Position numbers and translations under genes: made by a program
NCBI GenBank assembly: GCA_900498245.1
Contig: LS998015.1
Span: 3,157,610-3,185,830 of the forward strand
Length of the DNA stretch: 28,221 nt
Origin: Candidatus Zixiibacteriota bacterium
GTDB lineage: Bacteria > Zixibacteria > MSB-5A5 > GN15 > PGXB01
Reading direction: 5' to 3'
The notes under the pieces: model-generated
Database searches by the model: none
Told to the model about the DNA's origin: nothing
What the model saw: only the letters and a program-made list of their open reading frames with translations
Shown: positions 291 to 3,081 of the stretch, piece by piece
Position numbering within the stretch: the first letter of the stretch is position 1
Layout: every line of letters starts with the position of its first letter

Positions 291-797
291 TTAAGACCAA
301 TCCTGCACCTTGAGAGTTTTGACTTTTTTCTGAAGAGTTAAACATCCTTCCAGAAGCGACTCCGGCCGGGGAGGACAGCCGGGAATATAAACATCGACCG
401 GCACGATATGATCGATCCCTTTTTCGACGGCATAACTGTCGTAGTAGAATGGGCCGCCATGAACCGTGCAGCCGCCCATAGCGATAACATAACGCGGCTC
501 GGCCATCTGGTCATACAGGAGGCGGAGCCGGGGGGCCATTTTTTTGGTAATGGTGCCGGCAGCGATGATTAAATCGGATTGGCGCGGCGAGGCCCGGAAA
601 ATCATGCCGAAGCGATCAAAATCGTAACGGGAGGCCCCGGTGGCCATCAATTCGATAGCACAGCAGGCGGTTCCGAACAGCAAATACCACAACGAACTGG
701 CCTGCGACTGGCTCAAGACATAATTGAGCGAGGTGGTGGCGATGCCGCCGCCAGGGAATTTCTCCAAATATACCGGAAGTTTCTTTATTACACCCAT
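291..797 (-). CDS. nuoB: NADH-quinone oxidoreductase subunit B (NuoB)
   Basis: A 168-residue protein, the usual length for the PSST subunit of complex I, which carries the terminal iron-sulfur cluster N2 that reduces quinone. The cluster ligands are visible: adjacent C45 and C46 in [14 protein letters not shown]110 in [10 protein letters not shown] and C141 in PGCPPRPE. It sits at the cytoplasmic membrane surface between the peripheral and membrane arms. The gene overlaps the end of nuoA by 10 bases and precedes nuoC by 12 bases, so the three are translated from one message and are probably coupled. No key residue is missing. The main alternative would be the small subunit of a membrane-bound NiFe hydrogenase, but the nuoA and nuoC neighbours argue for complex I. 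Confidence 0.97.
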
Positions 798-1141
798 TTC
801 AATACTCCTTTCTTCCAGGCATAGAAGAGGCCAAAAAGTAATACGGCGATAAAAATCACCATTTCAATCAGAGCATAGAGCCCCAATTGCCCGAAAGCGA
901 CCGCCCACGGAAAGAGAAAGACCGCTTCGACATCGAAAACCACAAAAATCAGCGCAAAGATATAGAAACGGTTGTTGAACTGGATCCAGGCGTCCCCGAT
1001 AGGCTGTTCGGCCGATTCGTAACTCTGGTTTTTGGCCTTATAGGGGTGCGCCGGCCGAATCAGGCGGGCCAGGAAGAAGGTAAACAGGACCATTCCAATC
1101 CCCACTCCCAGGAAGACCAGAACGGCTAAATATGCTGACAT
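788..1141 (-). CDS. nuoA: NADH-quinone oxidoreductase subunit A (NuoA)
   Basis: A 117-residue membrane protein with three predicted transmembrane helices at about residues 3-27, 59-79 and 87-110. The conserved loop between helices 1 and 2 ([21 protein letters not shown]) and the helix-2 motif [15 protein letters not shown] are diagnostic of the ND3/NuoA subunit of complex I, whose loop senses the active/deactive state near the quinone site. The ATG is preceded by a purine-rich GAGG and GAGAG stretch. It is the first gene of the nuo operon and overlaps nuoB by 10 bases. The upstream region holds a promoter-like pair and a CRP-type palindrome. Confidence 0.96.
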
Positions 1142-1374: not shown

Positions 1375-3081
1375 TTAGAGACCGGAGATCACCGCCCCTC
1401 TGGGATAGCCGAGGCGATAAGAGAAAGTGACAATCTTTTCTTCATCGGGGGCAAGAGTGATATCCCATTTGGCCCGGCCCTGCTCGTCGATAGACGCCGG
1501 TCTTGGATCTATGTCCTTTGTCTTGATCTTGATCTGATTATGCTGGCTGACCGGCAAGGCCTCTTCGAGAGAAATTGTCTTCGGGATGGGGGCGTGATTT
1601 TTCAGGGTAATTTTGACGGTTTCGGACAATTCTTCCTGGCCGCCAAAGATGCTTTTCTTGCGAGAAACGATTTCTCTTTTGACGGTTATCTGGTTATCCA
1701 AACCGAACGGCAGTTCAAATGCCTGTCCGGGGACAATTGTCTCCTTAACGGACGCTTTGCCGAGGTAGCCCGATTCGACAAAAATATTGACCACCCCCGG
1801 CATCAAGACACCCCGATCATTATTGGTCAGGGTGGCCTGCCGGTAAACGCCCGTAACATTGCGGGGGCGGCAGATATAATTTGTAGCGGCGTCAAAATCC
1901 CATTGGGCAATAGGACAGCGAACCGATTTGTCACCCGAAGGGATGGACTCTTTTCTAATTATCAAGTACGAGATATCAAAACCAATCATTTTTTGAATGG
2001 CTGACGAGAGATTTCCCAGCCCGCCGGGCCCGTATCCCCCCAACGGATCCCCGATATTGGCACCGTCAACCAAATATGATACTTCTCCGGCACTTCCCCC
2101 CCTGATCCTGATTTCACCCCTGTTGGTCGTGACAACCCCGGGACTTTTTTGAAGAAGGTCATCGACATTCGAGATCGGCATGGCTTCAATGGATGCCCGC
2201 GATATGGTAATTTCGCCCGGCCCGGCATTAAGAGAGGGGCGGGAGGTCGATATGGTAATATTCACATCATCCCAATCTTCCCCGGTCCGTTGCACTATTT
2301 CGGCGAAATAATCGAGCCGGACTTTGCCGGTACCGGGATCGTAACGGGCGTCATACAAAGGGGTCCAGGATGCCCCCGGGAGCATATATGTCAGCGCCAA
2401 TTTGACCTTCCCTTCCCCGGCCAGCCGTACATCAATTTGCACCGATCTTGTTCTATTTCCGGAGGAGGCGTCTGATTTTGCCAATTCTTCTTTGAGAAGT
2501 TTCAGTTTTTCTGAAATATCCGCCCTTTCCCTGCTGAAATACCGCAAGGAGTCGGTCACCAATCTTAACTTCTTACCGAAAAATTGCATGCCCGCCTCCC
2601 ATTTGACGGCATCGATGGTACTGGCGGCGATCTGACGGGTCATCTCATCGGTGCCGGTCTTACCGATGGTCATAAGAAAATTTTTTTCATCTCCCAGGAC
2701 GCTGATATGATCATCGATCTCCTTAAGCCTGATTTCCTCCAGTTCCTTGATCCGGCTCTCCAATTCCGCCACTCGTTTCTGTTGGGACTCGAGGTGATTA
2801 ACTTCGGAATGATTCAGACCGAGAATAGTAACACCGTCAAGTCCTGAAGTGGAGACCTGAAACGAAGAGACATCGGCCAGATGCGGAATATTCTCGAATG
2901 TTACAGACTGATCTCCGGCGGGAAGTTCGACTGCCCCGCTTCGGGTCACCGTCGCCTCTCCGGGGTAAACGGTGACCGATTCGATTCTTGATTCAATATT
3001 CACCGAAGATGCCACGGCGCCGGATGTCAATAAAGCCAGAATTATCAATCCGGCCGTACTTATAGCCAATTGCCGTTTCAT
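1375..3081 (-). CDS. Secreted DUF4139/MuiA-family protein with an inserted TonB-plug-like segment
   Basis: A 568-residue protein from the chosen start. An in-frame ATG four codons upstream (3093) exists, but GGAGG ends five bases before the ATG at 3081, so 3081 is preferred. Residues 1-25 form a signal peptide. Next come the N-terminal DUF4140-type domain (VTVYPGEATVTRSGAVELPAG), a coiled coil around residues 90-205, and a DUF4139 barrel with the typical ASWTPLYDARYD and STSRPSL motifs. The rest of DUF4139 follows from about residue 385 to the end (GVVNIFVESGYLGKASV). Between the halves, at about residues 294-370, lies a segment resembling the plug of TonB-dependent receptors: DDLLQKSPGVV, IRIRGGSAGEVSYLVDGANI and a trailing SAIQKMIGF. 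The function of DUF4139 proteins is poorly known; mucoidy inhibitor A is the named member. The protein is probably periplasmic or surface-associated and stands as a single gene with its own terminator. Confidence 0.85.
   Translation of the reverse strand: MKRQLAISTAGLIILALLTSGAVASSVNIESRIESVTVYPGEATVTRSGAVELPAGDQSVTFENIPHLADVSSFQVSTSGLDGVTILGLNHSEVNHLESQQKRVAELESRIKELEEIRLKEIDDHISVLGDEKNFLMTIGKTGTDEMTRQIAASTIDAVKWEAGMQFFGKKLRLVTDSLRYFSRERADISEKLKLLKEELAKSDASSGNRTRSVQIDVRLAGEGKVKLALTYMLPGASWTPLYDARYDPGTGKVRLDYFAEIVQRTGEDWDDVNITISTSRPSLNAGPGEITISRASIEAMPISNVDDLLQKSPGVVTTNRGEIRIRGGSAGEVSYLVDGANIGDPLGGYGPGGLGNLSSAIQKMIGFDISYLIIRKESIPSGDKSVRCPIAQWDFDAATNYICRPRNVTGVYRQATLTNNDRGVLMPGVVNIFVESGYLGKASVKETIVPGQAFELPFGLDNQITVKREIVSRKKSIFGGQEELSETVKITLKNHAPIPKTISLEEALPVSQHNQIKIKTKDIDPRPASIDEQGRAKWDITLAPDEEKIVTFSYRLGYPRGAVISGL

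Follow-up and report, generated by a model that had tools for sequence, protein, structure and literature searches.

Our analysis of a 28,221-nucleotide stretch of a Zixibacteria genome (the window) revealed an exported protein of the MuiA family in which a variable loop of the DUF4139 domain holds a truncated plug that stems from the Oar-like TonB-dependent receptor of its own lineage. Across its relatives, the same loop took up pieces of the receptor's N-terminal periplasmic module (CarboxypepD_reg, TonB-box region, and plug) many times independently. MuiA proteins and receptor plugs are both known families; what appears to be new is that MuiA carries a piece of plug and that such pieces have been renewed repeatedly from the receptor of the same genome, and we found neither described in the open papers searched. 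Those searches likewise returned nothing relevant on the plug domain in connection with MuiA, domain insertion, or gene conversion, and no paper on DUF4139 function, although DUF4139 is named in this literature.

Table 1. Features of the MuiA-family gene and its surroundings (window positions; residues count from the start of the 572-aa frame).
Feature	Positions	Strand	Basis
MuiA-family protein gene (DUF4140, coiled-coil hairpin, split DUF4139), 572 aa	1375..3093	(-)	ORF and profile search
Sec signal peptide MKRQLAISTAGLIILALLTSGAVA	3010..3081	(-)	Read from the sequence; model helix 2-22
DUF4140 domain, residues 40-140	2674..2976	(-)	Profile match
Coiled-coil hairpin, residues 101-212	2458..2793	(-)	AlphaFold model; fold search returns long-helix proteins only
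DUF4139, first part, residues 232-289, ending ...STSRPSLN	2227..2400	(-)	Profile match and alignment
Receptor-derived insert, a truncated TonB-receptor plug, residues 295-369 (ITISRASIEAMP...SSAIQKM)	1987..2211	(-)	Profile match and receptor alignment
Conserved plug core IRIRGGSAGEVSYLVDGANIGDPLGGYG	2032..2112	(-)	Profile match and alignment
DUF4139, second part, residues 370-565	1399..1986	(-)	Profile match and alignment
nuoA-like gene downstream of the MuiA gene, followed by nuoB- and nuoC-like genes	788..1141	(-)	Names via sequence recognition

The identity of the host protein is given by hmmscan matches to TIGR02231 (MuiA; 2e-91, 307.3 bits against a cut-off of 112.6), DUF4140 (1.1e-19), and DUF4139 (3.7e-46, residues 232-565, split), with the two domains in the order of the family. 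Its signal peptide, as read from the sequence, probably starts at M5 and lacks a lipobox cysteine. The protein is not a receptor, as the sequence-only reading had held: outside the insert its 572 aa are DUF4140 and DUF4139, and among the Pfam matches there is no receptor barrel family, and hence no sign of a C-terminal 22-strand barrel. The position of the gene upstream of nuoABC is common to the window genome (G000; 3.5 Mb, single contig), its congener G089, and G081, of a sister genus. The window genome also encodes a second, shorter DUF4139 protein (G000:C1:2713942-2714775, L002; 456-aa frame) with no recognized receptor insert.

Within DUF4139, the Plug family (PF07715) matches residues 296-362 (E=1.9e-8, 35.2 bits against a cut-off of 23.9). 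This bears out the sequence-only reading, which had proposed a plug-derived segment here and whose named motifs are all present. The span it gave, 2202-2032 (residues 298-354), lies inside the insert, which alignment to receptors widens to ~75 residues, from I295 to M369 (2211-1987). Specifically, the host sequence ...STSRPSLNAGPGE is followed by ITISRASIEAMP...SSAIQKM, after which DUF4139 resumes. The further description of the segment as a clean domain insertion does not hold, as the plug is incomplete at both ends. The profile match covers positions 11-80 of 107 and leaves out the C-terminal strands, and the corresponding GGF.AEYG..SG sequence is absent, with DUF4139 resuming directly after SAIQKM. 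On the other side, only NAGPGE separates the host motif STSRPSL from the plug piece, with neither a TonB box nor the receptor's N-terminal extension there. The insert and the plug of the receptor in its own genome share 64.5% identity over 76 codons, and the congeneric genome G089 has the same insert, so the likeness to a plug is not due to chance. A 12-base direct repeat, ATTACCATATCG, lies at approximately 2200-2211 and 2254-2265 (minus strand), at the insert start EITIS and in the host motif NITIS, respectively; the homologous site in the receptor reads ACCATATCG (9 bases of the repeat). We considered this repeat as a relic of the junction and rejected it, as G089 does not share it.

Structure prediction does not support a complete, independently folded plug, since confidence in the insert stayed low even with a deeper alignment. 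With 18 MuiA sequences, AlphaFold modeled most of the host at pLDDT >85 and the insert at <50. With ~45 receptor plugs added, residues ~300-330 rose to pLDDT 62-69, forming two short helices and two short strands, and residues 332-369 remained at <50. The sequence-only reading had counted a disordered loop, or the lack of a profile match, against a plug; the former is matched only in part, with pLDDT <50 over most of the insert, and the plug profile match is significant. That reading had also suggested that the segment might occlude a beta barrel of the host domain, an idea we discarded, as neither the model nor the fold searches give a barrel in DUF4139. The best fold matches were to long-helix proteins for the hairpin and to beta-sandwich-type side domains for residues 405-558, the latter weak, and all were at levels common by chance, so that no fold family was concluded for the host.

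A search of 132 genomes of the phylum Zixibacteria pointed to the donor. In most of these genomes the insert, matched on its own, hits plugs in proteins of ~1,130 aa, largely at ~40-66% identity. The representative in the window genome is a 1127-aa protein (L034:1247-4630, minus strand), which we identify as an Oar-like TonB-dependent receptor because it combines CarboxypepD_reg and Plug and adjoins a PorV-like gene (PF19572, 1.9e-12; L034:254-1246, minus strand, directly downstream). It is one of six other plug matches in this genome, all in frames of 710-1137 aa, leaving the MuiA protein as the only short, non-receptor plug carrier. The MuiA and receptor genes lie ~700 kb apart. A foreign origin of the insert was rejected on composition, as its GC3 (~0.57) equals that of both host and receptor; values are also close in most other Zixibacteria.

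MuiA homologues occur in 19 of the 132 genomes, and their loops hold different portions of the same receptor module, which further undermines the notion of a clean domain insertion. CarboxypepD_reg, a TonB-box-like stretch, and plug are found together in G036 (cut by a contig end), G021, and G057; box and plug in G019 and G030; the plug only in G000, G089, G081, G044, and G070; and a piece of the box region only in G023, G074, and G117. Short or weak plug-like motifs are present in G073, G075, G087, G088, and G114, and no recognizable receptor piece was found in the loop of G040. In alignments, the longer inserts start near the mature N-terminus of the receptor.

The inserts also tend to resemble the receptor of the genome in which they reside. 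By local alignment against ~46 receptors, congeneric ones excluded, the best receptor was the genome's own in 11 of 18 genomes, and it ranked second for the G044 insert and third for that of G114. None of 100,000 random pairings reached the observed total (permutation p<=1e-5). For the window insert, its own receptor (score 248) and that of the sister-genus genome G081 (247) tie as nearest relative, and the own receptor ranks only eighth for the G089 insert, so this capture predates the window's genus. In a tree built from 46 receptors together with 10 inserts, starred branches pair the inserts of G019, G030, G036, G057, and G081 as sisters with their own receptors; that of G021 joins its own receptor with SH-aLRT 97-98, with weaker placement for G070. 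Receptor branches are near zero in length and insert branches long, which identifies the receptor as the donor.

These trees bear directly on whether a single ancient plug insertion into MuiA could have been passed down by vertical descent and retained as a folded domain. All inserts do sit in the same loop, and one shared event is compatible with the data for G000, G089, and G081, whose genes are syntenic and linked to nuo (AU p=0.62), so that single ancestry may apply within the window's own family. For the whole set, a single clade of inserts is rejected (AU p=2.9e-5, 186 log units), the starred branches force at least 8 changes, and long inserts are nearer to their own receptors than to other inserts. 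We consider one ancestral insertion for the whole set very improbable. Rather, acquisition was repeated, as the inserts do not form one clade and 11 of 18 are closest to the receptor of their own genome.

The captures are not recent. Compared with their own receptors, inserts show pS of 0.61-1.0, that is, saturated synonymous sites, at a residue identity of 49-81% (for G019, dN 0.119 and dS 1.49), and recent gene conversion in Zixibacteria was rejected on this saturation. An unconstrained insert would by then have lost most of its residue identity; thus, the long inserts are old and have been constrained at the protein level since their capture. Between the window and G089, the insert has a pN/pS of 0.28 (95% interval 0.17-0.44), against 0.07-0.28 (median 0.16) in windows along the host and about 0.11 (0.07/0.62) in the receptor plug. 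The insert is constrained in the window's genus, although only as strongly as the most relaxed of the host windows. Such constraint could reflect only a need to fold or to stay soluble.

The latter point touches the main competing explanation, that the DUF4139 loop is simply permissive, tolerating almost any soluble sequence, with receptor pieces recombined by chance being kept if they fold or do no harm and then eroding. Most MuiA proteins of other phyla have a low-complexity linker at this very site, different fragments persist in different species, one genome (G040) has no insert, and the low pLDDT of the insert fits as well. However, a merely tolerant loop does not account for the constancy of the donor (the N-terminal module of a single receptor type throughout at least four phyla), nor for residue conservation over 60-180 codons with synonymous sites saturated. 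We regard this explanation as quite possible, though somewhat less likely than the docking role described below.

Beyond Zixibacteria, the sequence-only reading had considered that related chimeras may exist in Bacteroidota, and these were found in Persicobacter sp., where the loop of a plasmid-borne MuiA contains CarboxypepD_reg together with the SusC-like sequence EEVVVVGYG, as well as elsewhere. In a group of 9-13-Mb genomes with Oar-like receptors, which we infer to be probably Myxococcota, second MuiA paralogues carry CarboxypepD_reg and the box region at 72-93% identity to the Oar-like receptors of the same genomes. There, inserts match their own receptors when genera are compared, but the pattern is not clean inside a single genus, and the high GC3 (~0.9) makes pS difficult to interpret. 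Several MuiA paralogues of ~720-760 aa with the Oar N-terminal module occur per genome in this group (L126, L127, L132-L135, L172, L189-L196), and some adjoin an ordinary MuiA gene.

In a third, small phylum, one MuiA paralogue has CarboxypepD_reg, and ordinary paralogues carry short plug pieces that score 95 (G298) and 97 (G296) against receptors, compared with maxima of 55 and 58 for shuffled loops. G302 scores 64 against 50 for shuffled loops, G301 and G260 are marginal, and by the same measure the loop of G297 holds no plug piece. Within one genus of this phylum (L095, L096, L097, and L098, of G298, G296, G260, and G297, respectively), the MuiA loop forms a hypervariable cassette of ~90 nt with sharp boundaries, and its flanks share 92-94% identity where compared. 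The plug pieces that the cassettes encode are of the resident type of receptor and differ from one cassette to the next; their GC3 is 0.23-0.60, against 0.78-0.81 in the host, and where tested pS to the receptor is 0.86-0.96 (few sites). The cassettes specify receptor-like peptides without DNA likeness to the receptor.

One function that might be imparted by such inserts is access to the TonB-ExbBD motor, with the insert supplying a TonB box so that MuiA acts as a TonB decoy or a TonB-driven protein. TonB-box-like stretches follow CarboxypepD_reg or precede the plug in G019, G021, G030, G036, and G057, and also occur in the Myxococcota-like and Persicobacter chimeras; in addition, the homologous N-terminal part of Oar (extension and plug) binds the TonB C-terminal domain (PMC6434023). 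However, a box is missing from the window protein and from those of G089, G081, G044, and G070, with NAGPGE alone standing before the window's plug piece, and we judge this function unlikely. More generally, no single binding function fits all inserts, since no one element is common to them.

The best explanation, which we find plausible while stopping short of calling it probable, is that the loop mimics the resident receptor and serves as a docking element by which MuiA is tied to it. A piece resembling that receptor's plug or N-terminal extension would let periplasmic MuiA dock to the receptor or to its binding partner: TonB where a box is present, and the barrel or plug partner where only the plug is present. 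As the window version has no box, docking to the barrel or plug partner would be the sole form of the idea that remains for it. Docking of this kind would couple an envelope protein to one particular receptor, and mimicry would account for a donor that never departs from this receptor type and in most cases belongs to the same genome. The strongest arguments for it are this constancy of the donor and the resemblance of inserts to the receptor of their own genome, with the binding of TonB by the homologous part of Oar (PMC6434023) as the sole experimental anchor. Weighing against it are the distance between the MuiA and receptor genes, the variety of the inserts, which have no common element, the relaxed constraint and the eighth-ranked own receptor (G089) in the window's genus, and the low model confidence of the insert.

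A bolder extension, to which we give little credence at present, is that MuiA proteins carry, as the recognition element in a general partnership with receptors, a display copy of part of the Oar-like receptor of the same genome, and that this copy is renewed time and again while receptors diverge. The hypervariable cassettes of the small phylum would be one expression of this; there, because the cassettes use non-native codons, the likeness would need to be maintained or restored in the protein rather than in the DNA. Regardless, the recurrent uptake of receptor pieces hints at an unrecognized partnership between MuiA and these receptors. DUF4139/MuiA proteins are widespread and almost unstudied, and the loop suggests a concrete, testable partner for them. 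It is also unusual as a recurrent transfer of sequence from one gene family to an unrelated one, with donor and recipient both constant. In Pseudomonas aeruginosa, MuiA has been reported to affect swarming and biofilm (PMC10418997; PMC7603352).

Relative to known systems, the window protein shares its signal peptide, DUF4140, hairpin, and DUF4139 with the mucoidy inhibitor MuiA family (TIGR02231; PF13600 and PF13598), whereas ordinary members have a low-complexity linker in place of the receptor plug piece. Plug domains outside receptors may also occur in non-receptor proteins of Bacteroidota, in hosts other than MuiA. Finally, in Oar-type TonB-dependent transporters such as Myxococcus xanthus Oar, CarboxypepD_reg, TonB box, plug, and barrel form one protein (PMC6434023). 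The window insert is a piece of such a plug, to which the longer inserts of its relatives add CarboxypepD_reg and the box region, but MuiA lacks the barrel, and the window protein additionally lacks the extension, the TonB box, and the C-terminal plug strands.
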